Source: Deltaproteobacteria bacterium
GTDB taxonomy: Bacteria; Desulfobacterota; Binatia; UBA12015
NCBI GenBank assembly: GCA_016874795.1
Contig: VGTG01000007.1
Span: 1 to 64,000 of the forward strand
Length of the DNA stretch: 64,000 bases
Reading direction: 5' to 3'
In this document: one piece after another, positions 46-14,724 of the stretch
How positions within the stretch are numbered: the stretch's first letter is position 1
Layout of the letters: each line of letters opens with the position of its first letter
Program-made: the position numbers and the translations under genes
Notes under the pieces: generated by a model
What the model saw: the letters and a program-made list of their open reading frames with translations, nothing else
What the model was told of the DNA's origin: nothing
Database searches by the model: none

Positions 46-1239
46 TCAGGCTAGCTCACGATCTCGATCGCTCGCTGCGTCGCGCGGTCGCTCGAAGAGG
101 GAGTGGCTCACCCACCACTCCTGCCCGCCGGCGTGTCCGAACAGCTCCGCGCACGCCATGAAGAAGATGCGCCAGCGCTGCAGCCAGAGCGTCGCCTGGT
201 CCGCGCCGTACGCTAGGGCAAGGAGCGGCAGCACCTGCTCGCGGCAGCGGTCGAGGTTCTCGAGCCAGGCCTCGGCGGTGCGCGCGTAATGACGCCCGTC
301 CCAGCGCCATCGCGAGACGAGCCGCAGACGGTCCTGGAAGCGCGACGGCAGGTCGTCGCTCGGCATGATGCCGCCCGAGAAGAAATGCCGGCTCATCCAG
401 TCCGCCGGACCTTCGTCGAGGAAGGCGTACGGCACGGCACGGTGACAGAACACGTGCAGGAAGAACTTTCCGCCCGGCCGGAGCCATCCGTGCACGCGCG
501 CGAAGAGCGCCCGCCAGTTCCGCATGTGCTCGAACATCTCGACCGAGACCACTCGATCGAATCGGTCGGCGATGGCGAACGAGTTCATGTCGGCCGTGAT
601 CACGCGAACGTTGTCGAGGCCGCGAGCGCGCGCCTCGCGCTCGATCCAGGCGCGCTGCGACGCCGAGTTCGATACGCCCGTAATGCGGCTCGTCGGATGA
701 TGCTCCGCCATCCACAGCGTGAGCGAGCCCCAGCCGCAGCCGAGCTCGAGGATCTCCTGTCCGCCGGCGACGTCGGCACGCGCGCACGTCTCGGCAAGCG
801 CCGCGTCCTCGGCCGCGGCGAGGGTTTCGACGCCCGCCGGCCACCAGCACGAGCTGTACTTGCGTCGCGGCCCGAGGACGAGGGCGAAGAGCTCGGCCGG
901 GACCTCGTAGTGCTGCTCGTTCGCGAGGTGCGGGACCGGAGCGATGTCGCCGTCGTCCATCTCGCGCACGAAGCGCTCGACGCGCTCCGCAGCGGTCTCG
1001 CAGTCGCCCAGCGAGAGATCCGCGCGACGCCGCCCGTTGAGCCGTCGGATGCCCCGCCGGATCACGGCATCCGGAACGTAGCCCTGCTCGACCCAGCCGA
1101 GCGCCAGGTCCGCGACGCGAACGGCCTGCGTTGTCGGGGCGCGCTCGAGAGAAGGCACCACCGCTCGAGCCTCCACGAGCTTCGGTGTCGCGCTTCCGTC
1201 GAGCTCGCGGCTGCCCGACGGCAACATCGTCGTTCCCAT
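46..1239 (-). CDS. SAM-dependent methyltransferase, cyclopropane-fatty-acid-synthase family
   Basis: This is a 397-residue class I methyltransferase. The SAM-binding motif LELGCGWG lies at residues 164-171. It is preceded by NEQHYEVPAELFALVLG (about 108-124), which replaces the HYDLGNDFF block of true CFA synthases. By family knowledge it would act on membrane lipid acyl chains; the exact product (cyclopropane, methyl or furan precursor) cannot be read from sequence. The start chosen is the first ATG after the fasciclin stop, 8 nt downstream of it, so the pair is probably one transcript; a second ATG lies four codons inside. It differs clearly from the other CFA-like gene at 6435-7724 and is not a recent duplicate. 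The chemistry is confident, the substrate is not. Confidence 0.85.
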   Translation of the reverse strand: MGTTMLPSGSRELDGSATPKLVEARAVVPSLERAPTTQAVRVADLALGWVEQGYVPDAVIRRGIRRLNGRRRADLSLGDCETAAERVERFVREMDDGDIAPVPHLANEQHYEVPAELFALVLGPRRKYSSCWWPAGVETLAAAEDAALAETCARADVAGGQEILELGCGWGSLTLWMAEHHPTSRITGVSNSASQRAWIEREARARGLDNVRVITADMNSFAIADRFDRVVSVEMFEHMRNWRALFARVHGWLRPGGKFFLHVFCHRAVPYAFLDEGPADWMSRHFFSGGIMPSDDLPSRFQDRLRLVSRWRWDGRHYARTAEAWLENLDRCREQVLPLLALAYGADQATLWLQRWRIFFMACAELFGHAGGQEWWVSHSLFERPRDAASDRDRELA

Positions 1240-1247
1240 GTCGTCGC

Positions 1248-1772
1248 CTACTCGGGCAGCAGGACCGCGTCGATGATGTGGATGACGCCGTTCGACGCGA
1301 GTACGTCGGCCTGCACGACCTCTGCGTCTTGCGCCGTCACGGTGCGGTCCGAGATCGCGATCTCCAACGGTTGCCCGTTCAGCGTGACCGCAGTCCCGGC
1401 GGCGACCGCGTCCGCGGCGAGGAGCCGGGATGGGATGACGTGGAACGTGAGGATGGCGACGAGCGTTTCCCGGTTCTCCGGACGGAGCAGATCCTCGAGG
1501 GTGCCGGGGGGAAGGGCCGCAAAGCCCTCGTCGGCGGGCGCGAACACCGTGAACGGCCCCTCCGAGCGCAGCGTCTCGGTCAGGTCGGCCGCGTCGAGCG
1601 CGGTGAGCAGGGTTCCGAACGAGCCCGCTTCGGTCGCTACGTCGACGATGTCTCGTGCCGGAGCCGGGTCGGTCGCTGGGTCGTCGTCTCCGCAACCGGC
1701 CGCACCGAGCGCGAGCAGTGCGGTCAAGGCAAGGGTCGAAGCCCGAGGCTTCGCAATGATCTCCAAGAACAC
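1248..1772 (-). CDS. fasciclin-domain lipoprotein
   Basis: This is a 174-residue secreted protein. A short charged N-terminus, a hydrophobic stretch (LALTALLALGA) and a lipobox cysteine (AAGC, followed by GDDD) indicate a lipoprotein. The rest is one fasciclin (FAS1) domain with the H1-like block GPFTVFAPADEGFAAL and the H2-like block NGVIHIIDAVLLP. FAS1 domains usually mediate adhesion at the cell surface. I chose GTG because GGGAGGA lies 8 nt upstream; an in-frame ATG 48 nt earlier would place 16 extra charged residues before the signal peptide. It is the first gene of a pair with the methyltransferase that follows. A role in the neighbouring light/B12 regulon is inferred from context only. 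Confidence 0.85.
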   Translation of the reverse strand: MFLEIIAKPRASTLALTALLALGAAGCGDDDPATDPAPARDIVDVATEAGSFGTLLTALDAADLTETLRSEGPFTVFAPADEGFAALPPGTLEDLLRPENRETLVAILTFHVIPSRLLAADAVAAGTAVTLNGQPLEIAISDRTVTAQDAEVVQADVLASNGVIHIIDAVLLPE

Positions 1773-1836
1773 CTCCAAAGTCCTCCCTTCTACTTCCAGG
1801 ATGCCGGAAGGACGCGGCACGTCAAGATCCTAAGCA

Positions 1837-1907
1837 TTCAAAACGTTCATTTAGGAGCCAAGCGCATGCCAGATTTGCATGTAAACGAGCGCATGATAAC
1901 GTTCAAA
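1837..1907. promoter_or_regulatory. two AACGTTCA-type motifs between divergent genes
   Basis: The intergenic region between the fasciclin gene and the SRPBCC fragment holds AAACGTTCAT (1841-1850) and ATAACGTTCAAA (1896-1907). The second is repeated exactly at 3566-3577, near the start of another gene. On the minus strand, sites one and three extend to a common TGAACGTT(A)TTGAAT. They are candidate operators for the MerR/B12 regulator encoded just downstream; this is inference. Confidence 0.35.
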
Positions 1908-1940
1908 GCCGATCAACTAGCCTCGCGCGGAGAAAGGACC

Positions 1941-2189
1941 ATGCGCTACGACGAGACGTTCACGACGCCCGAACAGGCGCTCGCCTTCGCCGGCGACCTC
2001 CGGAACCTGACGCGCTGGGATCCGTCGATCGAGGCGGTCGAGAAGCGGATCGAGGGCGAGATCGGCCTCGGCGCTCGGTTCATGGTGCGTTTGCGCTTCC
2101 TCGGTCGCCCGAACGAGATCGAGTACGAGCGGTCGGAGCGGAGCGGGCGCGCCTCGATCCAACCCGTTTCGACGTCGTTGCGTGCTTGA
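1941..2189 (+). pseudogene. truncated SRPBCC (polyketide cyclase/START-like) gene
   Basis: Eighty-two residues match the first half of an SRPBCC lipid/steroid-binding domain: a start with DETFTTPEQALAFAGDLRN, a W-P pair (RWDPSIEAVE), then GARFMVRLRFLGRPNEIEYE. SRPBCC proteins are usually about 140-150 residues; here the frame closes after RSGRASIQPV and the second half, including the long C-terminal helix, is absent. The next gene starts immediately afterwards, and its alternative GTG start would overlap the end of this reading frame. The ATG at 1941 has AGAAAGGA just upstream. It is probably a decayed or internally deleted gene; a short functional protein is possible but unlikely. Confidence 0.6.
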
Positions 2190-2220
2190 CCGCGACCGCC
2201 AGGTCGGCTCAATCCTGCGA

Positions 2221-3099
2221 ATGCCTCGACCCGTTCCGCTCCTTTCCCCGCGCGACCTGGGACGCGCGGTGGGTGTCAGCGAGTCCTCGGTCAAGCGCTG
2301 GGTCGACGACGGTCGCCTCCCCGCGGAGCGCACTGCCGGCGGCCACCGCCGCATCCGGCTGGCGCACGCGGTTCGCTTCGTGCGGGAGTCGGGCATGGAG
2401 GTCGTCCGGCCGGATCTTCTCCGTCCGCGGCCCGAGGGCACCCGGCGCCGGGGGGCGGGCCCAACTCCTTCGTCTTTGACCGAGGCGCTCCGCGAGCTCG
2501 ACGGCGCCGCAGCGCGAGGCATGCTCGTCGGCTCGTTCCTGCAAGGCGCTTCGGTCGCGACCCTTTGCGACGGCCCGATCCGCACTGCGCTGCACGAGCT
2601 CGGACCCCTCTGGAAGGAGAGCCCCACGGGGATCGCCCTCGAGCATCATGCGGTCGACGCCTGTATCCAGGCGCTGATGGAGATCCGCGCGATGATCTCC
2701 GTAGCCGAGCGCTCCCGCTCCGCGGTGGGCGGCGCCGTCGAGCACGATCCCTACATCTTGCCGTCCCTGATGGTGGCCGTGGTGCTCGCCGAGGCCGGCT
2801 TTCGAACGCGCAACCTCGGACCGAACGTACCCGCGAGCGCACTCCGAGCGGCGACCGAGGCGAAGGCGCCCGATCTGGTATGGCGTTCGACGAGCATCGA
2901 GATGGATCCCACGGCGTTGAGAGCCGACATCGATGAGATCCGGAAGGGCCGCTCTCTGGAGATCGTGGTCGGCGGTCGAGGTCTCGGCCGCGGAGCCTCG
3001 GGCACGACCTCCGGAGTGCACCACTGCGAGTCGATGGCCGAGCTCGCCGGGTTCGCGCGCGGCATGCAGCGCACCGCCGGACGGTCGGGACGGCGCTGA
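2221..3099 (+). CDS. MerR-type regulator with degenerate B12-binding domain (CarH/LitR-like)
   Basis: This 292-residue protein has an HTH_17/MerR helix-turn-helix (about 8-60: SPRDLGRAVGVSESSVKRWV then GGHRRI), a four-helix cobalamin-cap domain (about 85-165) and a Rossmann B12-binding domain (about 170-285). The cap keeps the W-x9-EH signature of light-sensing CarH/LitR proteins (W131, E141, H142). In the Rossmann domain the usual (E/D)xHxxG ligand motif reads DPYILP, so tyrosine replaces the histidine that coordinates cobalt and proline replaces the glycine. It may bind B12 without a lower ligand, or have lost light sensing. A GTG 39 nt upstream is an alternative start overlapping the preceding SRPBCC fragment. 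Its targets are unknown; nearby AACGTTCA motifs are candidates. Confidence 0.85.
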   Translation: MPRPVPLLSPRDLGRAVGVSESSVKRWVDDGRLPAERTAGGHRRIRLAHAVRFVRESGMEVVRPDLLRPRPEGTRRRGAGPTPSSLTEALRELDGAAARGMLVGSFLQGASVATLCDGPIRTALHELGPLWKESPTGIALEHHAVDACIQALMEIRAMISVAERSRSAVGGAVEHDPYILPSLMVAVVLAEAGFRTRNLGPNVPASALRAATEAKAPDLVWRSTSIEMDPTALRADIDEIRKGRSLEIVVGGRGLGRGASGTTSGVHHCESMAELAGFARGMQRTAGRSGRR

Positions 3100-3120
3100 G
3101 CTGCGGAGATCGGCCGTCGG

Positions 3121-3585
3121 TCAGGCCGCTTCGGCGACCCGCCCCGCCGGATGCTCGGCCGGCAGCCGCGTGTGGACGAGACGTCGGATCCACTCCGGAT
3201 CGACGCCGAGCCGGTGGCAGATCGGAATGAAGGAGAGGAAGTAGGATTCATCGTCTCCGTCGATCCAGCGCAACGCCATCCTCGCTTCCGCGCGCATTGC
3301 CTCGCTGCCCGAATCGAGATGGCGGATCGCGCACTGGATCGCGTCGAACAGGATCGCGCGGTTCAGACGGAGCTCGGGCGAATCCCGGACCGCCGGTTGG
3401 TTCAGCGGGACCTGGACCGGGTCGACGAAGGGAGCTGCGAGGGCTCTCTCGACGATCGCGGCGATCTCGTCCGGCGGCAGCCGCTTCACGCTCGGGTTCC
3501 AGGAGAGGATGTCCACCCTTCCGGCTTCTTTCATGGTCTGGGTGGACCTTCTGGCCTCGGATTCAATAACGTTCAAATCGTTCAT
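3121..3585 (-). CDS. conserved hypothetical protein with HTH-like C-terminus
   Basis: This 154-residue cytoplasmic protein lacks signal or membrane segments. The C-terminal 60 residues (EARMALRWIDGDDESYFLSF, then ICHRLGVDPEWIRRLV) have the alternation of a helix-turn-helix. They resemble the small WI-x-FSFE-x-C-x-LGxDPxYIRRxL proteins found near regulators in Deltaproteobacteria; the function of that group is not known to me. Two starts are possible: the ATG at 3585, or an internal ATG at 3534 (MKEAGRV) that would leave the TTGAACGTTATTGAAT motif upstream as a regulatory site. The gene converges on the MerR/B12 regulator with a 21-nt gap. A regulatory role is a guess. Confidence 0.6.
   Translation of the reverse strand: MNDLNVIESEARRSTQTMKEAGRVDILSWNPSVKRLPPDEIAAIVERALAAPFVDPVQVPLNQPAVRDSPELRLNRAILFDAIQCAIRHLDSGSEAMRAEARMALRWIDGDDESYFLSFIPICHRLGVDPEWIRRLVHTRLPAEHPAGRVAEAA
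3566..3577. promoter_or_regulatory. third copy of ATAACGTTCAAA motif
   Basis: The 12-mer is identical to the one at 1896-1907. It lies inside the first codons of the long form of the hypothetical gene, but would be 32-43 nt upstream of the shorter start at 3534. TCGTTCAT follows directly, and GAACGCTAAG at 3605-3614 is a weaker related sequence on the other strand. It is a possible operator of a local regulator. Confidence 0.3.
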
Positions 3586-4063
3586 TCGTGGACGATACGC
3601 GATCGAACGCTAAGCGTCAAGAGACTATAAATATTAGCTTTTGTCGGATCCAGATACGTCCAATCCGTTCAGGACACGAAGGGATCGCGGAACCTCTTCG
3701 GGCTCGCCCGGCCAACACCGGGCAGCGCCGTGAGCTCTTCCTCCGAGCTTCTGTCCATTTCGGCACGGGGTGTCAGGTGGCAATCGATGGGGATCTCGGC
3801 CGGGAAGCCGGCGAGGTCCCGCACGCGGGTGCAGAAGACCGCACGCAATCCCCACATCTTCGCTTGACGACGCTGGAGTGCTCGCTCGGCACCAGGCCGA
3901 GGTAGACATCGGCTCGCGGGTCGTCCGGAAGCGTCCATGGCCTCGACCGGTTACCGACCTCCACTTGCTCGGCTCGGCGTTCGTCCCGGCGCCCGGACCG
4001 CCATCGAGGGGGCCGCGAAGAAGGCACTTGGTTGCCCTTTGAAAACTGCGCGTCGAGGGCGTG
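3586..4063. other. gene-free interval with AT-rich start and a duplicated gene tail
   Basis: About 480 bp carry no convincing gene. The first 60 nt are the most AT-rich of the neighbourhood (GACTATAAATATTAGC), a plausible promoter zone for the minus-strand hypothetical gene. Around 3768-3836 lies a diverged copy of the last codons of the SDR-SRPBCC gene. No open frame here has a convincing start or a recognisable domain. Confidence 0.5.
3768..3836 (-). repeat. diverged direct copy of the 3' end of the SDR-SRPBCC gene
   Basis: This stretch aligns by eye with 4059-4130: both contain GGCAATCGATG, a GGCCG-GAAGC-GGCG block, CCCG and GCGGGTGCAGAAG in the same order. In the minus frame it would encode LLHPRAGPRRLPG, against LLHPRSGAAPASRPG in the intact gene. 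It looks like a small tandem duplication or recombination scar about 290 bp from the parent. Confidence 0.5.
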
Positions 4064-5479
4064 TCAGTCGGCAATCGATGCCGGTCCGGGCCGCGAAGCG
4101 GGCGCGGCCCCGGAGCGCGGGTGCAGAAGGCGCGCGAGCGTCTCGTACCGATGCTCGAAGATGCGCTCGAGATCGCGCGCGACGAACGACCCCGCCGCGA
4201 GGTCGCCGAGCGCTCCGAGCGGGAGCCGGTAGCGCACGCGATCGCGCACGAGCGTCCCGCCGTCCACCTCCTCGAGCTCGTGCGTGTGGTGCCAGACCGC
4301 GTACGGGCCCGAGAGCTGCACGTCGACGAAACGATGCGGCGGCGCCCACTCTTCGATCCGCGAGCGCCAGCGCACCGGCATCCCGTGCAGGCGCAGGCGA
4401 TAGTCGATCGTCGTGCCGAGCTCGATCTTCTCCGTCGACATACCGGTGATCGAGAAGTGGAGGAAGTCGGGCGTGATGCGCTCGAGGTTCTTCGCGTCCG
4501 CGAAGAAGGCGAACGCCTCCTCGATCGGGACCGGGACGACCTGCTCGTAGACGCTCTCGTGATCGGGGCTCGCGCAGATCGGGGCGAGCGCTTCCGCGAG
4601 TGTCGCGTAGCGATGCCGGAAGCCCGTTTCCTCGGCGACGCGCGGCCGCACGCGCTGGCTCGCGAGGAGCACCGAGGCCATCTCTCCAAAGGCGAGCTTC
4701 AGGCCGAACGCGGGGACGGGGAGGAGGGCGGGACGCCCGAGGCTCTGCGCGAGGACGCGCGTGAACTCGTGGTTCCGCACCGGCGCCGGCGCGACGGCGT
4801 TCATCGGACCGCGCACCCCCTCGCTCTCGACGGCATGGCGGAAGAGCGCGACGACGTCGTCGAGATGGATCCAGCTCATCCACTGCTTCCCCGAAGCGAC
4901 GGGCCCGCCGAGGCCGAGCCGGAAGATCGGCAGGAGGCGGCCGAGCGCGCCTTCCTCGGGCGCCAGCACGACGCCGACGCGCACGGCAACGGCACGGACG
5001 CCGAGACCCGCCGCGGCGAGCGCCTCCCTCTCCCACGCCTTGCAGACGCCGGCGAGGAAGCCTTCGCCCGGCGAGTCGTCCTCCTCGAGGATCTCATCGC
5101 CGCGGTCGCCGTAGATGCCGATCGCGGAAGCGCAGACGAAGGCGCGCGGGCGGTCGGACACGGATCGCTTCGCGATCGCGTCGACGATCGCGCGCGTGCT
5201 CGCGACGCGGGACTGCTCGATCGCCGCCCTCCGCGCCGCGGTCCATCGTCCCGAGGCGACGTTCTCGCCGGCGAGGTGGACGACGACGTCGACGCCGTCG
5301 AGATCGGCGGGCTCGACGCGCTCGGCGTCCCAGCGCCGCGCTTCGCAGAGCGCCGGAAGACGACGGCGCGCGCTTTCGGGATTCCGCGTCCATGCGACGA
5401 CGCCGTGTCCCGCTCCGAGAAGGCTCCGCGCGAGCGCGCGGCCGATCAGGCCAGTCGCTCCGGTGATCACGACGTTCAT
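4064..5479 (-). CDS. TIGR01777-family SDR epimerase fused to SRPBCC domain
   Basis: A 471-residue fusion. Residues 1 to about 295 form a TIGR01777/YfcH-type extended short-chain dehydrogenase: the Rossmann motif GATGLIG near the N-terminus, VVHLAGENVASGRW, SAIGIYGDRG and the closing GPMNAVAPAPVRN block. Residues about 310-455 form an SRPBCC hydrophobic-ligand domain (VYEQVVPVPIEEAFAFFADA; GTTIDYRLRLHGMPVRWRS). Such fusions are common beside photolyase and LitR genes; the substrate is unknown, presumably a lipid. It is the last gene of the leftward six-gene operon, and its ATG overlaps the preceding TGA as ATGA. A degenerate copy of its 3' end lies 290 bp beyond its stop. Confidence 0.88.
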   Translation of the reverse strand: MNVVITGATGLIGRALARSLLGAGHGVVAWTRNPESARRRLPALCEARRWDAERVEPADLDGVDVVVHLAGENVASGRWTAARRAAIEQSRVASTRAIVDAIAKRSVSDRPRAFVCASAIGIYGDRGDEILEEDDSPGEGFLAGVCKAWEREALAAAGLGVRAVAVRVGVVLAPEEGALGRLLPIFRLGLGGPVASGKQWMSWIHLDDVVALFRHAVESEGVRGPMNAVAPAPVRNHEFTRVLAQSLGRPALLPVPAFGLKLAFGEMASVLLASQRVRPRVAEETGFRHRYATLAEALAPICASPDHESVYEQVVPVPIEEAFAFFADAKNLERITPDFLHFSITGMSTEKIELGTTIDYRLRLHGMPVRWRSRIEEWAPPHRFVDVQLSGPYAVWHHTHELEEVDGGTLVRDRVRYRLPLGALGDLAAGSFVARDLERIFEHRYETLARLLHPRSGAAPASRPGPASIAD

Positions 5480-6441
5480 GCCGACTCCCGTACGTGCACC
5501 GAAGCGCCCGTGGCAAGGCCGCGACAGACGTTCCAGAGACGCTCGCGCTCGTCCGCCGACTCGTGCGTGAACGGAAGGAGGTGCGTCGTGCGCGGCGTTC
5601 GATCGAACCAGAAGAGACCGCTCTCGCGGCCGGGTGACGCCGCCGTCGCGAGCCAGACGACGGTGTCCGCGCCCTCCGCCGGAGTGCGGAGGCGATGCCG
5701 GAGTAGGCGCCAGAAGCGGGGCAGGGACGTGCGCACGGCCTCGGTGTCCGCCCAGCCCGGGTGCATCGAATGGAAGGAGATCTGCGCGCGGCTTCGCTCG
5801 GCGAGGAGCTCCGCGACGACGACTTGCATCCGCTTCGTCTGCGCGTACGCGACGACGCCGTCGTACGCGCGGCCGCTCCAGTCGAGATCTTCCATCGAGA
5901 GACGCTGCGTGTACATGCCTCCCGAGGACACGAAGATCACGCGCGCGCCGGCGCGGAGCCGCGGCTCGAAGAGGCGCGTCAGGAGGAAGGGCCCCGCGAC
6001 ATGCGTCGCGAACGTGAGCTCGAACCCATCGCGCGTGATGATTCGCTCCGCCGGCAGGACCCCGGCGTTGTGCACGAGTACGTCGACGTGCTCCTCGGCG
6101 AGGCTCGAAGCGAAGGCGCGGACGCTCTCGAGGTCGGAGAGGTCGACGAGGTCGACGAAGACGCGCGCGTTCCCCGTCGCGGCGACGATCGCGCCCTGCG
6201 CGCTCGCGCCGCGCTCGCGGTTCCGGCAGAGGAGATGGACGTGCGCACCACGCTGCGCGAGCTCGGCGGCCGTCGCGAGCCCGATGCCGGAGGAAGCGCC
6301 GGTGACGAGGCAGATCCGGCCGGAGAGGTCGACGTCCAGATCGCGCGGATCGAAGGACCGCGCGTGGCGGGCGAACCCGGAGCGGTCGAAGGAGTAGAGG
6401 ATCGACGCGTCGAGGAGCGCGCCGCGAAGCTCGCTCAGCAC
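5476..6441 (-). CDS. short-chain dehydrogenase/reductase
   Basis: A 321-residue classical SDR. It has TGASSGIG (cofactor loop), the HNAG motif, an SSGGMY block and a YAQTKRM active-site YxxxK. The GTG start overlaps the stop of the upstream methyltransferase (GTGCTGA) and the gene ends in an ATGA overlap with the next one, so it is embedded in the lipid operon. About 45 residues precede the Rossmann fold (LYSFDRSGFARHARSFDPRD), longer than usual, as in dehydrogenase/reductase-SDR homologues linked to retinoid or lipid redox in eukaryotes. A fatty-acyl or isoprenoid carbonyl substrate is inferred from operon context. Cytoplasmic or membrane-associated; no transmembrane helix is seen. Confidence 0.88.
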   Translation of the reverse strand: MLSELRGALLDASILYSFDRSGFARHARSFDPRDLDVDLSGRICLVTGASSGIGLATAAELAQRGAHVHLLCRNRERGASAQGAIVAATGNARVFVDLVDLSDLESVRAFASSLAEEHVDVLVHNAGVLPAERIITRDGFELTFATHVAGPFLLTRLFEPRLRAGARVIFVSSGGMYTQRLSMEDLDWSGRAYDGVVAYAQTKRMQVVVAELLAERSRAQISFHSMHPGWADTEAVRTSLPRFWRLLRHRLRTPAEGADTVVWLATAASPGRESGLFWFDRTPRTTHLLPFTHESADERERLWNVCRGLATGASVHVRESA

Positions 6442-7724
6442 GTGGTGCCTCCCCAGAGCGGCTTCGCGAACAGGAGCTGGACGTCGCCGATGTAGCGCTC
6501 CGCGAAACCGCCTTCGCAGTAGCTGAGGTAGTATTCCCACATCCGAACGAACTCCTCCGAGAACCCGAGTGCGCGAACGCGCGTGAGGTTCGCGAGGAAG
6601 CTCGAGCGCCACTCGCGGAGCGTCCGCGCGTAGTGCGGCGTGATGTCCTCGAGGTCGACGAGCCGCAGGTCCGAACTCCGCGTCGTCGAGTCGAGGAGGG
6701 CCGTGACCGACGGGATGCAGCTCCCCGGGAAGATGTACCGCTTGATGAAATCGGTCGAGCGGCGCGCCTGCTCGTAGCTCTGGTCCTCGATCGTGATCGC
6801 CTGGATCAGCGCGAGCCCGTGCGGCGCGAGACGGTCGGACACGGCGCGGAAGTAGGCGTCGAAGTAGCGATCGCCGACGGCCTCGATCATCTCGATCGAG
6901 ACGAGCTTGTCGAAGGTCCCGTCGAGGTCACGGTAGTCCTTCCGCAGGAGGGTGATCCGATCGGCGAACCCGGCCTCCTGCACGCGTCGCGAAGCGAGAT
7001 CGTGCTGCTCCTGCGAGATCGTCGTCGTGGTGACGCGGCAGCCGAATCGAGAGGCCGCGTGCAGCGCGAGCTCGCCCCAGCCGGTGCCGATCTCCAGCAG
7101 GTGATCTTCGGGGCGGAGCTCGAGCTTGCGGCACACGAGGTCGATCTTGGCGCGGCTCGCCTCCTCGAGCGTCGCTTCCGGAGATTCGAAGTACGCGCAG
7201 GAGTAGCTCATCGTCGGATCGAGGAAGAGCGCGAAGAAGTCGTTGCCGAGGTCGTAGTGGCCGTGGATGTTGCGGCGAGCGCCGCGCCGGGTGTTGCGGC
7301 GGAGCGCTTCCAGGACGCGGAGCTGCGGCGTGCGAAGAGGCGTCCGGAGCGGCTCGCTGCTCTCCCACACACGCCGGTTGCGCGTCAGCAGCCGGACGAG
7401 AGCCGTCAGGTCGTCCGCCGTCCACTCGCCGCGCATGTACGACTCCGCTGCGCCGAGGGTGCCGTGCAGCGCGAGCGAGCGATAGAAGCGCGGCGAGGCG
7501 ACCGTGACCGTCGCGTCCGGGCCCGGCTCCGCGCCCGCGAAGTCGAGCTCTCCCGAGGCGTCGGCGATGCGGATCCGTCCGTACTGGAGGCTCGCGAGCC
7601 GAGAGGAGAGGAGCCGACGTGCGAATCGATCGACGAGCGAGAGCCGCGACCTCTGGGGTGTGACGGCGTCGCGCGCCCCGGCGGGCGTCGAGACGGAAAG
7701 AGCATTCGCATTCGTCGCGTTCAT
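6435..7724 (-). CDS. cyclopropane-fatty-acyl-phospholipid synthase-like methyltransferase
   Basis: A 429-residue protein of the CFA synthase family with the lipid-binding N-terminal domain (about 35-150), HGHYDLGNDFF (154-164), the SAM motif EIGTGWGE (211-218) and the SIEMIEAVG and FIKRYIFPG blocks. The family transfers a methylene or methyl from SAM to the double bond of membrane phospholipid acyl chains. Operon partners (desaturase, FAD oxidoreductase, DUF1365) match sets reported with light- or singlet-oxygen-induced lipid modification, so cyclopropane or methylated/furan fatty acids are both possible. The start is ambiguous: the ATG chosen has AAGGGA 11 nt upstream; a GTG nine bases earlier would overlap the preceding TGA. 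Confidence 0.9.
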   Translation of the reverse strand: MNATNANALSVSTPAGARDAVTPQRSRLSLVDRFARRLLSSRLASLQYGRIRIADASGELDFAGAEPGPDATVTVASPRFYRSLALHGTLGAAESYMRGEWTADDLTALVRLLTRNRRVWESSEPLRTPLRTPQLRVLEALRRNTRRGARRNIHGHYDLGNDFFALFLDPTMSYSCAYFESPEATLEEASRAKIDLVCRKLELRPEDHLLEIGTGWGELALHAASRFGCRVTTTTISQEQHDLASRRVQEAGFADRITLLRKDYRDLDGTFDKLVSIEMIEAVGDRYFDAYFRAVSDRLAPHGLALIQAITIEDQSYEQARRSTDFIKRYIFPGSCIPSVTALLDSTTRSSDLRLVDLEDITPHYARTLREWRSSFLANLTRVRALGFSEEFVRMWEYYLSYCEGGFAERYIGDVQLLFAKPLWGGTTC

Positions 7725-7729
7725 GGCAT

Positions 7730-8554
7730 TCACGATCCCTTCGGTGTCCCGCCCGCTAGCGCGGGATGCGGGAAGAACGGCGCACGCTTCCACCAGAGTC
7801 GAAGAGCTTGCGCGTGGATGGCCGTGATCACACGGCCGGTCATCATCGGATGGCGAAGCAGCACCCGCGCGAGGCCCCGGCCGTCGATCGGGCGGCGATC
7901 GAGGCGCATCGTCGCGTCGAAGAAGCGCCGCCCGCTGGAGAGGCTCTCCATGTGCACGACCAGCCGCTCCGACGGCGCGACGAAGCGCCAATCGTAGTCG
8001 ACGTCCATGCCGATGAAGGGCGAGACGTGGAACGTCTTCGGGAAGTGGAAGCGCAAACGCCGGCTCCCGTCGCGGCGCTCGGCAACCGCGGCGTCGAGCA
8101 CGTAGCAATGACGCTCGCCCCAGGGCGTGTTCGTCACCTCCGCGACGATCGTCTCGAGCTCGCCGCCCGAACGATCGAAGCAATAGTAGAAGCTGACCGG
8201 ATTGAAGCAGTAGCCGCAATAGCGAAGATGGGTCAGGAGCCGGATCGGTCCCTCGGGGCGCCGGCCCGTGTGCTCGCACACGAGGCTCCGGATCGTCTCC
8301 TGCAGAGGCTCTTCTTTCGGTCCGACGTGATCTTCCCGCCGGAAAGCGGCGACGGCGGGGCGGTCGACCGCCCAGAGCCAGCGTCCGGCGAACACGGACG
8401 GAAGCTCGTCGAGATCGAGGTAGAGAAGGAACACGCGGTAGCGGAACGCGTGCTCGATCGGCTCGGTCCGCCGATGGCGCACCCAGCCCTCGTAGAGGCA
8501 GCTCTCTCGTGCGCTCGGGTTCGTCTGTGGGATCGGAAGCACGGTCGCGCTCAT
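7730..8554 (-). CDS. DUF1365 family protein
   Basis: A 274-residue DUF1365 protein. Diagnostic blocks are YEGWVRHRRTEPIEHAFRYR near the N-terminus, LLTHLRYCGYCFNPVSFYYC in the middle, and FHVSPFIGMDVDYDWRF towards the end. No biochemical activity is firmly assigned to this family; it almost always lies between an FAD amine-oxidase-like gene and a CFA-like methyltransferase, as here, so it probably takes part in the same acyl-chain modification. Its ATG overlaps the upstream TGA as ATGA. Conserved Cys, His and Asp residues could bind a metal, but this is not established. Some homologues are annotated as plasmid partitioning proteins, which I consider wrong. Confidence 0.9.
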   Translation of the reverse strand: MSATVLPIPQTNPSARESCLYEGWVRHRRTEPIEHAFRYRVFLLYLDLDELPSVFAGRWLWAVDRPAVAAFRREDHVGPKEEPLQETIRSLVCEHTGRRPEGPIRLLTHLRYCGYCFNPVSFYYCFDRSGGELETIVAEVTNTPWGERHCYVLDAAVAERRDGSRRLRFHFPKTFHVSPFIGMDVDYDWRFVAPSERLVVHMESLSSGRRFFDATMRLDRRPIDGRGLARVLLRHPMMTGRVITAIHAQALRLWWKRAPFFPHPALAGGTPKGS

Positions 8555-9840
8555 CCCGCCGCGGCGAGGACGCGCGCGTCTCTCTCTGCGTCGCGCTCGC
8601 GCCGGGCGGCGAGCGCTTCGACCACGCGCAGCCCGCTCCACATGCCGTCCTCGTGGAAGCCGTATCGCCAGTAGGCGCCGCAGTAGTGCGTCCGGTTTCG
8701 TCCGCTGATCTCCGACCAGCGTGCCTGCGCCGCGGCGCCCTCGAGAGTGAAAACGGGATGGTGGTAGGTGATCCGCCGCAGGACACGCTCCGGCCGGATC
8801 GCGAAGGACGGGTTCAACGTCACGCAGAACTGCTCGGGAGCGTTCAGGCCCTGCAGGTGGTTCATCCAGTAGGTGACCGCGACCGGGCGCTTGGGATCGC
8901 CCGGGACGTGGTAGTTCCAGCTCGCCCAGGCGCGGGGGAGACGCGGCAGGATACTTTCGTCCGTGTGCAGGACCGCTTCGTTCTCCTGGTAGGGGATCGC
9001 GCCGAGCACCGAGCGCTCCGCTTCGCTCGGATCGGCGAGCAAGCGGAGCGCCTGGTCGCTGTGCGTCGCGATCACGACCTCGTCGAAGTGCCGCGGCGGT
9101 CCCTCGTGCGGCACGACGACGACGCCCGTCGCGAGCCGCGCGATCCGGCGCACGCCGGTCCGGAGGTGGATGCGGTCGCGGAACGGCTCGACGAGCCGCT
9201 CGACGTAGCGCTCCGAGCCTCCGAGGACCGTTCGCCAGACGGGCCGGTCGAAGAGCTGGAGGAAGCCGTGATTCTGGAAGAAGCGCACGAAGAAGCGGGC
9301 GGGCATCTCGCTCATCGCTGCCGGGGTCGCGGACCAGATCGCGGCGCCGAGCGGGACGAGAAAGCTCGCGATGAATTGCGGTGAGTAGTCGTTCTGCACG
9401 AGCCAGGTGCGGAGCGGAAGCTCGCCGTCGGCCTCTTCGAGGAGCCGGGGCGACTCGCGCTGGAAGCGGAGCGCGTCCGCCATCATGCGGAGGAACCAGG
9501 GGCGGAAGAGATTCCGCCGCTGCGCGAAGAGCGTGTTGACGGATCGTCCCGACCACTCGAGGCCGGTCCGCCGGCACGAGAGCGAGAAGCTCATGTCGGC
9601 CGCGCGCGAAGCGACGCCGAGCCCGTCGAGCATCGCGTCGAAGTGCGGGTAGGTCCGCCGGTTGAACACGATGAAGCCCGTGTCGACGGAGATCTCTCCG
9701 GCGGCGCTCGGGACCCGGTGGGTATGCGTGTGGCCGCCGATGCGATCGTCCGCTTCGAAGACCTCGACGTCGTGCTCCGCGGAGATCCCGCGGGCGGCGA
9801 CGAGGCCCGAGATGCCCGTGCCGATCACGGCGATCTTCAC
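8551..9840 (-). CDS. FAD-dependent amine-oxidase-like oxidoreductase
   Basis: A 429-residue flavoprotein with an N-terminal dinucleotide fold (KIAVIGTGISGL, G7-x-G9-x-x-G12), then an acidic ribose-binding end (VEVFEADDRIGGHTHT) and the NAD(P)-binding Rossmann/amine oxidase layout. The conserved VDTGFIVFNRRTYPHF block identifies the subfamily that travels with DUF1365 and CFA-like genes. In furan-fatty-acid producers a flavin desaturase acts on the methylated acyl chain; assigning that role here is inference. The GTG start overlaps the desaturase stop (GTGA) and the stop overlaps the next ATG, indicating translational coupling. No signal peptide. Confidence 0.88.
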   Translation of the reverse strand: MKIAVIGTGISGLVAARGISAEHDVEVFEADDRIGGHTHTHRVPSAAGEISVDTGFIVFNRRTYPHFDAMLDGLGVASRAADMSFSLSCRRTGLEWSGRSVNTLFAQRRNLFRPWFLRMMADALRFQRESPRLLEEADGELPLRTWLVQNDYSPQFIASFLVPLGAAIWSATPAAMSEMPARFFVRFFQNHGFLQLFDRPVWRTVLGGSERYVERLVEPFRDRIHLRTGVRRIARLATGVVVVPHEGPPRHFDEVVIATHSDQALRLLADPSEAERSVLGAIPYQENEAVLHTDESILPRLPRAWASWNYHVPGDPKRPVAVTYWMNHLQGLNAPEQFCVTLNPSFAIRPERVLRRITYHHPVFTLEGAAAQARWSEISGRNRTHYCGAYWRYGFHEDGMWSGLRVVEALAARRERDAERDARVLAAAG

Positions 9841-10787
9841 GACGCGACCTCGAGCGCGCGAACCGGTACCGGCCGGAGGTCGCGAACGACGCCGATCCGC
9901 GCGAGGAGCCAGAGCGCGTAGTAGGTGAGGTCGATCTCCCACCACGCGAAGCCCTGTCGCGCCACGCCGGGGAAGCGGTGATGGTTGTTGTGCCAGCCCT
10001 CGCCGAAGGTGAGGAGAGCGAGCCAGAGCGAGTTTCGGCTGTCGTCGCCGGTCGCGAAGCGACGCCGCCCGCGGCCGTGCGCGAGCGAGTTGATCGTGAA
10101 GGTCGCGTGCAGCAGCGCGACCGTCGATACGGCGAATCCCCACACGAGGAGCTGCGCTCCGCTCGTCTCGAGGTGCGGCGCGCCTGCGGCGAGGATCTCT
10201 CCGGCAGCGTAGAGGATCGCCGCGAGGGCGGCGGGGACGGCGACGTCGAAGCGGTCGAGCCAGCGAAGCTCGGGAAAGGCGGCGAGATCCGGCACGCGAT
10301 CGAGCCGCACCGCGAAGTTCTCGCGGGACGTGAGCCAGAAGACGTGGCTCCACCAGAAGCCCCGGCGTCCGGGCGAATGGGGATCTTCGTCGCGGTCCGC
10401 GTGGCGGTGGTGGTGTCGATGGTGCGACGCCCACCAGAGAGGACCGCGCTGTACGGCCGAGGCGCCGAGGATCGCCGCGACGAGCTGCGCGCCCCGCCCG
10501 AGCGAGAACGCACGGTGCGAGAAGTAGCGATGATAGAAGGCGGTGATCGCGAACATGCGGACGACGTAGAGCGCCGCCGCGACGCCGACCGCGGTCGGGC
10601 TCCAGCCGACCCACAGGACGCCGAGGCAGGCCGCATGTAGCGCGACGAAGGGGACGATCCGGACCCAGTCGACCCGGTTCCGATCGGCCGGCGAGGAGCT
10701 CTGGTCCTCGAGCGCCCACGAGTCGAACCAGCGCACGACCGGCGCCAGGCGGCCGACGTCGAGAGGCTTCGTCAAAAGCTCGGACAT
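9837..10787 (-). CDS. acyl-CoA/lipid delta-9-type fatty acid desaturase
   Basis: A 316-residue membrane desaturase with the three histidine boxes of the di-iron family: HRYFSHR (86-92), HHRHHHRH (122-129) and HNNHH (266-270, within EGWHNNHHRFPG). Four hydrophobic segments flank the boxes in the usual order. It introduces a cis double bond into acyl chains, giving the substrate for the CFA-like methyltransferase two genes downstream. It is the first gene of the leftward operon. The ATG has no Shine-Dalgarno sequence and sits 6 nt from the proposed -10 box, so it may be read from a leaderless mRNA. Regulation by the divergent LitR is inferred. Confidence 0.92.
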   Translation of the reverse strand: MSELLTKPLDVGRLAPVVRWFDSWALEDQSSSPADRNRVDWVRIVPFVALHAACLGVLWVGWSPTAVGVAAALYVVRMFAITAFYHRYFSHRAFSLGRGAQLVAAILGASAVQRGPLWWASHHRHHHRHADRDEDPHSPGRRGFWWSHVFWLTSRENFAVRLDRVPDLAAFPELRWLDRFDVAVPAALAAILYAAGEILAAGAPHLETSGAQLLVWGFAVSTVALLHATFTINSLAHGRGRRRFATGDDSRNSLWLALLTFGEGWHNNHHRFPGVARQGFAWWEIDLTYYALWLLARIGVVRDLRPVPVRALEVAS

Positions 10788-10793
10788 GCGGCA

Positions 10794-10870
10794 GCTGTAG
10801 GGTCTTTGTCCGCTTTTGTCAAGTTATGTCCTGGACAAAAGTTGACACACGGGGGAGGGTTCTCTACACG
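10794..10870. promoter_or_regulatory. mirror-image divergent promoters with shared inverted-repeat operator
   Basis: On the plus strand TTGACA (10842-10847), a 17-nt spacer and TACACG (10865-10870) face litR. On the minus strand TTGACA (10817-10822), 17 nt and TACAGC (10794-10799) face the desaturase. Between the -35 boxes sits a perfect inverted repeat, CTTTTGTC (10813-10820) and GACAAAAG (10834-10841), around TGTCCTGGACA. Both -10 boxes end 6-7 nt before an ATG. A LitR/CarH oligomer bound here would block both promoters; that is inference from the family's known dark repression. Confidence 0.7.
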
Positions 10871-10877
10871 AGGAGAC

Positions 10878-11879
10878 ATGAGCGAGAGGAAATCCTCGGG
10901 TGCCTTCCCGGTCCGCACTGCGGCGCGCCTTTCCGGGCTGAGCCCGGACCTGATCCGCGCGTGGGAGCGGCGTTACAAGGTGGTCTCACCGAGTCGCGGC
11001 CCGCGCGGCGCCCGCCTCTATTCCAGCGCGGACATCGAGCACCTGAACCTCCTCGGCGAGGCGGTCGGCGCGGGACGGAGCATCGGGGACGTCGCCGGTC
11101 TCGGCCGGGAAGCGCTTCGCAGCCTCGTCGAGCGCGATCGCGAGTCTCGCGGGCTTCCCGCCCTGGTTGCGGTTTCGCCGCCGGCGAACGCCACCGAATC
11201 GGCCGGCGCGATCGCCGCGAGGGTCCTCGCTGCGGCGCACGCGCTCGCGGCGGTCGACGTGGAGCGCGAGCTCAGCGACGGTCTCGCCGCACTCGGCCGC
11301 GCGCGGTTCGCGCGCGAGCTCGTTCCTCCGCTTCTCCGCGAGGTCGGCGATCGGTGGGCGAAGGGAGAGCTGTCGATCGCCGGCGAGCACCTCGTCTCGA
11401 ATGCGCTCCGGAGCCTGCTCGCCGGACTCGTACGCAGCCGACGAAACGGTACGGGCCCCTCCGTTCTGCTCGCGACGCCGCCTGGCGAGCGGCACGAGTT
11501 CGGTCTCTTCCTCGGCGCGTTCGCCGTGCTCGAGGCGGGCGGCAGCCCGGTCTACCTCGGATGCGAGGTCCCCGCCCGGGAGGTCGGCGTCGCCGCCGTC
11601 TCGGCGAACGTCCGCGCGGTCGGACTGAGCTGCGTCGCGCAGGCAAATCGCACGCGCGCACGCGCCGAGATCCGCGACCTCGAGGGATTGCTCCCGTCGA
11701 ACGTGCTGTTCTGGGTCGGCGGTCGGGAGGCGGAGGCGGTGTGCTCCCCCGGCTCTCGGGCGACGGTCCTGTACGATCTCGCCGCTCTCGAGGAGCGCGT
11801 GCGTCGATGGGCACGCGAAACCGGAGAGCTCGAAGGCACGCTCGAGCGAGAGCTGCTCGCGGAGCGGGAAGGACGATGA
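10878..11879 (+). CDS. litR: LitR/CarH-type MerR regulator with B12-binding photosensor domain
   Basis: A 333-residue regulator with a MerR helix-turn-helix (about 10-80: RTAARLSGLSPDLIRAWERR), a helical cap with W160, E170 and H171 (the W-x9-EH motif), and a Rossmann B12-binding domain with the lower-ligand motif ERHEFG (His206). All signatures of adenosylcobalamin photoreceptors of the CarH/LitR group are present. By family knowledge it is a DNA-bound tetramer in the dark and is released by light. The start follows AGGAG by 3 nt; a longer frame opening 72 nt upstream would run through the operator and is rejected. It heads an operon ending in photolyase and faces the lipid operon, its likely targets. 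Confidence 0.93.
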   Translation: MSERKSSGAFPVRTAARLSGLSPDLIRAWERRYKVVSPSRGPRGARLYSSADIEHLNLLGEAVGAGRSIGDVAGLGREALRSLVERDRESRGLPALVAVSPPANATESAGAIAARVLAAAHALAAVDVERELSDGLAALGRARFARELVPPLLREVGDRWAKGELSIAGEHLVSNALRSLLAGLVRSRRNGTGPSVLLATPPGERHEFGLFLGAFAVLEAGGSPVYLGCEVPAREVGVAAVSANVRAVGLSCVAQANRTRARAEIRDLEGLLPSNVLFWVGGREAEAVCSPGSRATVLYDLAALEERVRRWARETGELEGTLERELLAEREGR

Positions 11880-13252
11880 CGTCCGCCCGCGAGCACGTGT
11901 CCTGGGGCGTCCGTGTCGCCTACGCCGCGCCCGCCTTCGCGATGGCGGTGGTCGGCATTCCGATCTACGTCTACTTGCCGAAGCTCTACACCGACGTCGT
12001 CGGCGTCGAGATGGCGACGGTGGGAGCACTGCTCCTCGGCGCGCGTGTCCTCGACGCCGTGAGCGACCCGTTCGTCGGCGTGCTCTCCGACCGCACGCGC
12101 TCGGCGCTCGGCAGGCGCCGGCCCTGGATCGTCGGCGGAGCGCTCCCGCTCGCCGTCGCGATCGTCTGTCTCTTCCATCCGCCCGAAACGGGACAGGGCG
12201 GGGCGGCGTGGCTCGGCTTCTGGGTGTTCTCGGTCTTCGCCTTCTGGGCGTGCGTGACCGTGCCCTACGAATCGCTCGGTCCCGAGATCACGTTCGACTA
12301 CGACGCGCGCACGAGCCTCCTCGCGGTGCGCGACGGTGCGCTGATCCTCGGGACGCTCGCCGCCGCAATTTCGCCCCTCGTGGTGGAGGCTCTCCTGGAC
12401 CTGCCGGCGACTCCCGCGGGCGAGCGCTCGAAGCTCTTCTGGGTGGCTGCGGCGTGGGGGCCGCTCGTCGTCGCGGCGTGCCTCTGGTGCGCGTACGTCG
12501 TCCGCGAGCCGAGCGCGGCGCCGCCCGCGAGCGCTCCGCGCACGCGCGTCGGGATCGGCGACGCGCTCGCCGCGGTGCGCAGCAATCGGCCGTTCGCGAT
12601 TCTGCTCGCGTCCTACACGGTGAGCGCGCTCGGCAGCAATCTGCCCGCGACGCTGATCCTCTACTACGTCGAGTACGTGCTCGAGGCGCCCTGGGCCGAG
12701 GGCTTTCTCGTCCTCTACTTCGTCACCGGTGTGGCCTTCCTGCCGGCCTGGGTCTGGCTCGCGCGGCGGATCGGCAAGAAGGCGGCGTGGCTCGCCTCGA
12801 TGAGCGTCAACAGCGGCGCGTTCCTCGGCGTCTTCTTCCTCGGCCCGGGGGACGCCGTCGGCTACGGCGTGCTCGTCGCCCTGTCGGGGACGGGCTTCGG
12901 GGCGACGCTCGCGATCGCCTCGTCGATGCAGGCGGACGTGATCGACTACGACGAGCTGCTCTCCGGACGGCGGCGCGAGGGTCTGTACGTCGGCATCTGG
13001 TCGGTCGCGCGCAAGCTCTCGGCGGCGCTCGGCGTCGGGCTCGCGCTGCCGCTGATCGGCGCCGCCGGCTACGTCCCGAACGCCGTGCAGGGGCCCGACG
13101 TGCAGCTCATGCTGCGCGTCCTGTACGCGCTCGTGCCGAGCCTCTGCAACGCCGCCGCGATCGCGATCGCGCTCGCCTACCCGATCTCGCGCGAGCGACA
13201 TCGCGAGATCCTGCTCTCGCTCGGACGCGCGGCGGAGGTGCGCGCCGCATGA
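11876..13252 (+). CDS. MFS transporter, glycoside-pentoside-hexuronide:cation symporter type
   Basis: A 458-residue polytopic membrane protein with about 12 hydrophobic segments. Family marks are the D-x-x-D-P block of the first loop (DAVSDPFVGVLSDRTRSALGRRRPW) and the VTVPYESLGPEIT segment, which place it in the MelB-like GPH group. Such proteins co-transport sugars or other small polar solutes with cations. Members inside LitR/photolyase clusters have no assigned substrate; export of a lipid precursor or carotenoid-related compound is speculation. The ATG overlaps the litR stop (ATGA) and the TGA overlaps the next start, so expression is coupled. Confidence 0.88.
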   Translation: MTSAREHVSWGVRVAYAAPAFAMAVVGIPIYVYLPKLYTDVVGVEMATVGALLLGARVLDAVSDPFVGVLSDRTRSALGRRRPWIVGGALPLAVAIVCLFHPPETGQGGAAWLGFWVFSVFAFWACVTVPYESLGPEITFDYDARTSLLAVRDGALILGTLAAAISPLVVEALLDLPATPAGERSKLFWVAAAWGPLVVAACLWCAYVVREPSAAPPASAPRTRVGIGDALAAVRSNRPFAILLASYTVSALGSNLPATLILYYVEYVLEAPWAEGFLVLYFVTGVAFLPAWVWLARRIGKKAAWLASMSVNSGAFLGVFFLGPGDAVGYGVLVALSGTGFGATLAIASSMQADVIDYDELLSGRRREGLYVGIWSVARKLSAALGVGLALPLIGAAGYVPNAVQGPDVQLMLRVLYALVPSLCNAAAIAIALAYPISRERHREILLSLGRAAEVRAA

Positions 13253-14724
13253 GTGCCGAGCCCGTGATCCTTCTCACCGGTGCGACCGGCTACGTCGGTG
13301 GCCGGTTGCTGCGCGCCCTCGAGGCGAGCGGGCGGCGCGTTCGCTGCATGGCGCGGCGTCCCGAGAACCTGCGCGCCTGGGTCGGTCCCGGCACCGAGAT
13401 CGTCCGCGGCGACTGCCTCGAGTGCGCTTCGCTCGACGGCGCGCTCGCCGGAGTAGAGTCCGCCTACTACCTCGTGCACTCGATGGGCGCCGGCGCGGAC
13501 TTCGAGGAGCGCGACCGTCGCTGCGCGCGCCACTTCGGCGAGGCCGCGCGTGCGGCCGGCGTCAAGCGGATCTTCTACCTCGGCGGCCTCGGCGACGGCG
13601 GCGCGGAGCTCTCGGCGCACCTGCGGAGCCGCCAGGAGACCGGCGAGGTGCTGCGCGCCGCCTCGGGCCTGCCCGTGATCGAGCTTCGTGCCTCGATCGT
13701 GCTCGGTACCGGGAGTCTCTCGTTCGAGCTCATCCGCTCGCTCGTCGAGCGTCTTCCCGTGATGCTCTGCCCGCGCTGGGTCGAGACCGAAGCGCAGCCG
13801 ATCGCGATCGACGATCTCGTCGCGTACCTTCTCGCGGCGCTCGATCTGCCGGCCGAGAGCCGGATCCTCGAGGTCGGCGGTGCGGACCGCGTCTCGTACG
13901 GTGACATCATGCGGGAGTACGCGCGCCAGCGCGGCCTCCGCCGTGTCATGATCCCCGTGCCGGTGCTGACACCGAGACTCTCGAGCCTCTGGCTCGGCCT
14001 CACGACGCCGCTCTACGCGCGAGTCGGACGGAAGCTCATCGAGGGCGTCCGCAACCCGACCGTCGTTCGCGACGGCGCGGCGCGGCGCGCGTTCCCGTCG
14101 ATCCGGCCGATCGGTCTCCGCGAGGCGATCGCGCGTGCGATGGCGAACGAGGACCGCACCCTGGCGCGATGGTCGGCGGCGCTCTCGTCGTCGGGAATCG
14201 ACTCGAAAGTCTCCGGAGGCCGGCACTTCGGGCCACGCTTGATCGATTCGCGCGCTCTGCGCGTTGCGGCCACGCCGGAGCAGGCCTTCGCCCCGATTCG
14301 GGAGATCGGCGGCGAGCGCGGCTGGTACTACGCCGATTTTCTCTGGCGCTTGCGCGGCTTCCTCGACTTGCTCGCGGGAGGCGTCGGCATGCGCCGCGGC
14401 CGGCGCGACCCGGAGTCGCTCGTCGTCGGCGACGCGCTCGACTTCTGGCGCGTCGAGGCCTACGAGCCCGACCGCCGCCTGCGTCTCGCCGCCGAGATGC
14501 GGCTCCCCGGACGCGCCTGGCTCGAGTTCGAGGTGCGACGGAGTGGCGGCGAGACGGTGATCTGCCAGACGGCGGAGTTCGATCCGGTCGGCGTCGCCGG
14601 GAGGCTCTACTGGTACGGAATCTACCCGCTGCACGCGCTGGTGTTCCGCGGCATGCTCCGTGGCATCGCCGCGCGCGCCGCTGCGCACCCGAGCGCAGCG
14701 GCGTCCGCTCCCGGACGTCGATGA
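13249..14724 (+). CDS. NAD(P)-binding SDR with C-terminal DUF2867 domain
   Basis: A 491-residue protein. The N-terminal half is an NmrA/atypical-SDR Rossmann fold (VILLTGATGYVGGRLL; YYLVHSMGAG; RIFYLGGLGD), and the last 160 residues are DUF2867 (GWYYADFLWRLRGFLDLLAGG; LDFWRVEAYEPDRRLRLAAEM). DUF2867 resembles an SRPBCC-like ligand pocket, so this gene mirrors the SDR-SRPBCC fusion that ends the divergent operon. The reaction is unknown. The first coupling (ATGA with the MFS stop) and second coupling (ATGA with photolyase) put it firmly in the litR operon. No membrane segment. Confidence 0.88.
   Translation: MSAEPVILLTGATGYVGGRLLRALEASGRRVRCMARRPENLRAWVGPGTEIVRGDCLECASLDGALAGVESAYYLVHSMGAGADFEERDRRCARHFGEAARAAGVKRIFYLGGLGDGGAELSAHLRSRQETGEVLRAASGLPVIELRASIVLGTGSLSFELIRSLVERLPVMLCPRWVETEAQPIAIDDLVAYLLAALDLPAESRILEVGGADRVSYGDIMREYARQRGLRRVMIPVPVLTPRLSSLWLGLTTPLYARVGRKLIEGVRNPTVVRDGAARRAFPSIRPIGLREAIARAMANEDRTLARWSAALSSSGIDSKVSGGRHFGPRLIDSRALRVAATPEQAFAPIREIGGERGWYYADFLWRLRGFLDLLAGGVGMRRGRRDPESLVVGDALDFWRVEAYEPDRRLRLAAEMRLPGRAWLEFEVRRSGGETVICQTAEFDPVGVAGRLYWYGIYPLHALVFRGMLRGIAARAAAHPSAAASAPGRR

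Follow-up and report, generated by a model that had tools for sequence, protein, structure and literature searches.

The window, the whole 64-kb stretch of DNA analysed here, carries at positions 2221–3099 an open frame for a 292 aa regulator. A GTG at 2182 lies in the same frame and would give a protein of 305 aa if used. The features of the locus, on the coordinates of the window, are:

1248–1820, minus strand: fasciclin-domain gene, divergent from the regulator, a probable target
1833–1850, plus strand: operator-like tandem 9-bp repeat, AGCATTCAA AACGTTCAT, matrix score 21.1
2221–3099, plus strand: regulator, with a BldC/excisionase-type wHTH (approximately aa 7–55), a four-helix bundle (approximately aa 83–157) and a Rossmann cobalamin-type domain (approximately aa 165–289)
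2611–2646, plus strand: cap signature W131-x9-E141-H142, codons 131–142
2746–2763, plus strand: DPYILP, i.e. D176-P-Y178-x2-P181, with Tyr at the lower-ligand position
3121–3585, minus strand: conserved gene with no Pfam match, a probable target
3568–3585, plus strand: operator-like tandem 9-bp repeat, AACGTTCAA ATCGTTCAT, matrix score 28.6, the best in the window
3592–3620, minus strand: promoter-like sequence, −35 TTGACG (3620–3615), N17, −10 TATCGT (3597–3592)
4064–5479, minus strand: gene with Epimerase, DUF1731 and SRPBCC parts, a recurrent neighbour
10881–11879, plus strand: canonical LitR/CarH-type regulator with a MerR_1 wHTH and ERHEFG, used for comparison

A short SRPBCC-like frame, 1908–2189 (plus strand), ends directly before the regulator and looks truncated. 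It matches positions 13–62 of the 142 positions of Polyketide_cyc2 with an E-value of 2.7e-4, below the cut-off.

In profile searches, HTH_17 is just above the Pfam cut-off in the regulator, and MerR, MerR_1, B12-binding and B12-binding_2 are all below it. Three NCBIfam models also score below their cut-offs: BldC (31 bits, E-value = 1.6e-7, cut-off 77 bits), excisionase (28 bits), and the CarH equivalog (26.5 bits, cut-off 400 bits). The CarH model is matched by 58 of 59 family members at an E-value of 0.001 or better. The wHTH scores best with the BldC and excisionase models and falls outside the MerR type. The first-pass annotation described the regulator as a paralogue of LitR, with the canonical form about 8 kb away. 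The canonical gene is present at that distance, with W-x9-EH and GERHEFG. However, the two proteins match over 125 aa only, with 26% identity and an E-value of 0.016, and the DNA-binding half of the regulator is HTH_17/BldC-like where that of LitR is MerR_1; thus the paralogy holds for the cobalamin domain only.

The CarH motif, as given in an excerpt of PMC9304148, is D/E-x-H-x2-G/P-x41-S-x-T/V-x22-27-GG. The regulator reads D176-P-Y178-x2-P181-x41-S223-T-S225-x25-G251-G252. The spacing is kept, and the sole departures are His to Tyr and T/V to Ser (S225). The light-response signature excerpted from PMC11796333 consists of GxxW, EH, GxxH and GxxxP, and three of these four elements are retained (G128xxW131, E141H142 and G200xxxP204). 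In the GxxH element the His is Tyr, and the Gly is replaced by His175, unlike in most relatives. Indexing of the protein bears out the first-pass reading that W-x9-EH is kept exactly (W131, E141, H142) and that Tyr178 of DPYILP occupies the lower-ligand position, i.e. that the cap is kept without the His that ligates cobalt. The same annotation took DPYILP as a departure from (E/D)xHxxG. This stands for His to Tyr and not for P181, since the excerpt of PMC9304148 allows either G or P at the end of the motif; the real departure is therefore His to Tyr. The codon of Y178 is TAC (2752–2754), one transition away from His. The surrounding sequence is EHDPYILPSL, with P177 between D176 and Y178.

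The Tyr is not confined to this gene. A search of 39 genomes, the window's own and its relatives, gives 15 full or near-full matches at E-values below 1e-40, the regulator included, and all are without the His. Further loci were gathered by a contig scan with HTH patterns rather than with the motif, and the best 80 of 291 by likeness to the regulator were kept. The 94 loci give 91 rows after identical open reading frames are merged, 90 of them distinct relatives. At position 178 these show Tyr in 81, His in 5 (L069, L086, L109, L127 and L128), Phe in 2, Thr in 1, and Ser in 1. Other positions are similarly conserved among the 90: W131 in 84, E141 in 90, H142 in 89, D176 in 88, P177 in 80, P181 in 81, W221 in 90, G251 in 89, and G252 in 90. 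By entropy Y178 ranks 21st among the 204 columns of the cobalamin domain. Judged from the aligned sequences, the motif is far beyond chance in the 2221–3099 family.

In an unselected draw of 246 planctomycete genomes the family is found in 45 at an E-value of 1e-30 or better; the 53 open reading frame hits, two of which are counted twice because of overlapping stretches, show Tyr in 44, His in 2, and other residues in 7. Rows with Tyr come from six named phyla (Planctomycetota, Myxococcota, Acidobacteriota, Gemmatimonadota, Rhodothermota and Verrucomicrobiota), where single placements may be wrong because most family rows are MAGs. One planctomycete subgroup, L241–L265, displays ER in place of the EH of the cap, is two residues shorter there, and retains the Tyr; the cap is thus not untouchable. 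Many members of this subgroup carry the same tandem operator. Viral relatives were also considered, and these match in the HTH only. A search of open-licence PMC papers found none on the Tyr form or on a tandem 9-bp operator, and the Tyr regulators appear to be a large family so far undescribed. Searches for CarH-type sensors use the His, as in the GxxH signature, so the Tyr family would escape them.

A tree was made from 97 rows, 89 from the family and 8 His outgroups, with one duplicate and one fragment left out; its backbone is not resolved and the outgroup branches are long. The family separates from the His outgroups at a branch support of 99/100. Two His rows are found among Tyr rows on starred branches: L069 within the myxococcal ones, and L086 next to L091. 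With six motif columns removed, the family still stands apart from two outgroups (97/97), and the starred branches of this motif-free tree force at least three changes for His and at least five for Tyr. Since His is nested among Tyr rows, it was either regained or retained more than once. The nested His members also keep W and EH, which indicates that Tyr and His have been exchanged within a working protein. The suggestion that the Tyr form might be a conserved clade is thereby upheld, and the first-pass observation is real and was understated. The 2221–3099 regulator belongs to a large sister group of the CtMerR/CarH-type regulators. The marks of this group are Tyr for His, an invariant Trp221, an HTH of the BldC type and a tandem operator common to its members, situated at light-damage genes.

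The AF2 model of the regulator has a pLDDT of 93.2 and a pTM of 0.90, and both the four-helix bundle and the Rossmann cobalamin domain are present in it. The nearest folds are the photocobilins 8j2w, 8j2x and 8j2y (Z = 20.6) and CtMerR (Z = 19.4), followed by CarH (Z = 17.2 over 200 residues) and methionine synthase (Z = 17.2). The SCHIC domain of AppA (4heh) ranks below CarH (Z = 15.6–15.8).

In other cobalamin domains an Asp pairs with the lower-ligand His. The retention of D176 in 88 of 90 relatives would fit a pairing with the Tyr. A second feature of the pocket is Trp221 (codon 221, 2881–2883), where LitR has Gly and CtMerR has Cys. It is found at the end of strand 3, is invariant in 90 of 90 relatives, and is larger than the residue of either LitR or CtMerR; the other domains compared have Cys or Phe. 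Trp221 might crowd the nucleotide tail of cobalamin. A nearby His as substitute ligand does not hold generally: His is found at W+1 in 10 and at W+2 in 59 of 90 relatives, and the 2221–3099 regulator carries Lys and Glu at these positions. Mmp10 was considered as a precedent for Tyr and cobalamin; there Leu322 lies below the cobalt. Its Tyr115 is on the iron-sulfur cluster, so no precedent for Tyr is claimed. A review consulted on the matter makes no mention of Tyr either.

Ligation in CarH by His177 and His132 is described in an excerpt of PMC10442372. According to excerpts of PMC4557120 and PMC8221060, H177A in TtCarH results in loss of AdoCbl binding, and the equivalent H193A in MxCarH abolishes function in vivo. 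The H177A result speaks against cobalamin here, unless the Tyr and the rebuilt loop compensate.

Upstream regions of 79 loci (330 nt plus 20; one of the 80 loci was too short) were scanned. CGTT-N5-CGTT is present in 26 of the 79 and TTCA-N5-TTCA likewise in 26, each compared with 0.6 in dinucleotide shuffles. A matrix trained on these regions consists of two tandem copies of A[T/A]CGTTCA[A/T]; 64 of the 79 score 17 bits or more, 61 of them in one orientation, and about a fifth are without a good operator. In a held-out test of 37 other upstream regions, 17 score at least 17 and 14 at least 20, and among 840 control pieces of 350 bp the numbers are 3 and 1. Only two sites in the window score 20 or more, and both are beside the regulator. 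The site at 1833–1850 separates the fasciclin gene from the side of the regulator, where the two diverge. If up to two mismatches are allowed, the 6.27-Mb genome contains the operator pattern 3 times; in six genomes it is found 20 times as compared with 3 times for the reversed pattern. L086 (His) and its sister L091 (Tyr) have no operator, nor is one present within the 3.9 kb of L175, a canonical His form. In two planctomycete genomes there are extra sites far from the regulator (L206 994–1518 and L198 1501–2789), which adjoin genes for DCC1-like thiol-disulfide oxidoreductases, a possible further target.

The operator at 3568–3585 follows closely on a promoter-like sequence. On the minus strand TTGACG-N17-TATCGT stops 6 bp ahead of it. 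Across the family, 23 of 57 rows (about 3 expected) show a −35-like hexamer on the divergent strand at a distance of 24–33 bp from the operator. The position just after the −10 box suggests repression, and from these sequences the 2221–3099 family would appear to act as a repressor. Because the ATG listed for the 3121–3585 gene falls within the operator, translation probably starts at a later Met (MKEAGRVD...). BldC subunits bind 9 bp each, head to tail, on direct repeats (excerpt of PMC5859096), and the tandem 9-bp repeats fit, by analogy, a putative binding site of the BldC-type HTH.

The neighbourhood was counted in the best 80 of 291 loci, up to 7 kb on each side. Homologues of the 3121–3585 gene adjoin the regulator divergently in related genomes. 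Among these 80 best loci folE is present in 18, always divergent and at a median of 289 bp; fasciclin in 20, in 17 of which it is divergent from the regulator as in the window; DUF2867 epimerase in 19; Epimerase/DUF1731 in 17; photolyase in 15; SDR in 11; and amine oxidase in 10. The Epimerase/DUF1731 gene of the window, 4064–5479, is presumably TIGR01777-like. One or more of the nine families in the set (folE, photolyase, DPRP, fasciclin, DUF2867, TIGR01777, amine oxidase, CFA and DUF1365) is found in 53 of the best 80 of 291 loci and in 2 of 20 control stretches, with the bias that the query families were chosen for recurring in these loci and that the 20 controls come from four genomes. The other 27 of the 80 show none of the nine within up to 7 kb, and the controls, random 15-kb stretches, show only DUF2867 (2) and desaturase (1). 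In the window the gene set extends to 14.7 kb and matches the family neighbourhood. Nearly the whole of 46–14724 is a light-type cluster, which also contains two CFA-like methyltransferases, SDR, DUF1365, amine oxidase, a desaturase, LitR, an MFS transporter and a DUF2867 epimerase; the MFS transporter and desaturase were assigned by eye. Among the genes that light induces under class II LitR in Pseudomonas, an excerpt of PMC9758184 lists photolyase (PhrB), furan-fatty-acid synthase, folE and cryB.

A PduO-type adenosyltransferase is present in 23 of 25 genomes with the family in one set. Among planctomycetes it is found in 23 of 24 with the family (24 of the 45 were checked) versus 14 of 20 without it (Fisher p = 0.035). 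This distribution is weakly in line with use of AdoCbl. Two of the 25, the draft MAGs G428 and G432, have the family and neither a PduO- nor a CobA-type adenosyltransferase (PF01923, PF02572). In G448 a PduO gene lies 3.2 kb from the regulator; this arrangement was set aside, as it occurs in none of the best 80 of 291 loci and there is none in the window.

Of the known systems, CtMerR of Chloracidobacterium thermophilum (PDB 8JBS/8JBT, PMC11796333) has the same domain order and is the best PDB sequence match of the regulator (E-value = 7e-18). It combines a similar excisionase-like HTH (VSESSVKRW...RTPGGHRRF) with a CarH-type domain. However, in the excerpted text CtMerR binds AdoCbl and has the His (DLHEIA, H204 as lower ligand), and it carries Cys in place of the invariant Trp221 of the Tyr family. 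CarH and class I LitR share the fold of the cobalamin domain, W-x9-EH, GxxxP, GG and the motif spacing, and differ in having a MerR-type wHTH and His as the lower ligand. An operator of the LitR type, known from class II LitR, reads T(G/A)TACA-N12-TGTA(C/T)A, which differs from the tandem 9-bp repeats of the Tyr family. BldC has the same kind of wHTH and binds 9-bp direct repeats head to tail; unlike the regulator it has 68 residues and no effector domain, and its repeat is AATTxxxxC. The photocobilins are not known to bind DNA, and the regulator matches only the first two thirds of their chains. SCHIC domains share the fold, as the AppA match shows. Class II LitR (PplR, PmlR) acts on comparable genes (photolyase, folE, CFA-like ufaM, SDR), but keeps the four-helix part alone and has a short LOV partner. 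CarA of Myxococcus, a B12-independent relative of CarH, has retained the His motif but not the Trp (excerpt of PMC9304148); the Tyr family is the reverse, with Trp kept and His lost.

The family with its conserved positions, the fold, the operator, the neighbourhood and, for many members, the promoter geometry were computed here; that the regulator represses, responds to light and binds cobalamin, and what its Tyr does, is what we infer. In the reading we prefer, with about an even chance of being right, the regulator represses light-damage genes and perceives light by means of a cobalamin that is bound in the absence of a His ligand, the Tyr facing the cobalt. This reading is favoured by the retention of all elements that hold and cap AdoCbl apart from the His. 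Two copies would bind head to tail on the two tandem 9-bp repeats that follow the −10 box closely, and would thereby keep photoprotection genes from being transcribed, among them photolyase, GTP cyclohydrolase I, fasciclin and epimerase. AdoCbl would be held base-off in the dark under the W-x9-EH cap; Tyr178 would take the place of His toward the cobalt, as a weak O-ligand or a plug, and this form may oligomerise and bind DNA. Light would break the Co-C bond and the operator would be released. A wider form of this reading, put forward tentatively, is that cobalamin photoreceptors of this class extend across phyla and have Tyr, opposite the conserved Asp, in place of the axial His; AdoCbl would be base-off and His-off with blue-shifted absorption, and the sensor would drive a repressor of the BldC type that binds tandem repeats and controls DNA-repair and pterin genes.

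The chief rival, somewhat doubtful in our judgement, is a B12-independent regulator with a cobalamin fold and no corrin bound, which would signal by oligomerisation or through a partner protein as do CarA and class II LitR, the DNA-binding and targets being unchanged. It takes this place because H177A abolishes AdoCbl binding in CarH (PMC4557120, PMC8221060, in excerpt), and the CarH relatives CarA and class II LitR work without B12 (excerpts of PMC9304148 and PMC9758184). The invariant Trp221, the change of EH to ER in the planctomycete subgroup and the two genomes with no recognised adenosyltransferase point the same way. However, the loss concerns the Trp in CarA and the Rossmann part in class II LitR, whereas the Tyr family retains W, E, D, P and GG almost without exception. 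The first-pass annotation had proposed a B12-independent or a differently tuned sensor, and both stand as candidate readings. No LOV motif is found in the six frames of the best 80 of 291 loci, and reversions to His would be odd if the domain binds nothing.

Tyr ligates heme in other proteins, and the pocket might instead bind a bilin, heme as in SCHIC, or a pterin, which would connect it with the divergent folE; the Tyr would then be a ligand or contact. The fold shared with AppA 4heh (Z = 15.6) and the standing of folE as closest divergent partner (18 of the best 80 of 291 loci) agree with such a ligand, but the sequence and fold are closer to the AdoCbl photoreceptors than to SCHIC, and there would be no stated reason for the adenosyl-contacting W and E, GG and GxxxP to persist for heme or pterin; this reading is unlikely. 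A view of the single gene, where His to Tyr is one transition, would also allow neutral decay of one LitR copy in the source genome. The frame is intact and the operator conserved, however, and with Tyr in 81 of 90 distinct relatives and in 44 of the 53 unselected planctomycete hits, conservation across the family has already refuted decay, which is hardly credible.

If cobalamin is bound, as in the preferred reading of a light-sensing repressor, then the axial His, held to be essential, is replaceable, and the natural series Tyr, His, Phe, Thr and Ser would show how the lower residue tunes the photochemistry of cobalt. Should the wider, phylum-crossing reading be true, nature would have arrived at a B12 light switch in a second way. 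If there is no cobalamin, a widespread B12-independent switch is placed over the same light-damage genes. Either way, the family offers a candidate light regulon with a defined operator for planctomycetes and several poorly studied phyla. One genome of the Rhodothermia (G431) carries both forms: L175, the canonical His form with EEHELG, W-x9-EH and a similar HTH, and a Tyr form, which together make a natural pair for comparison.
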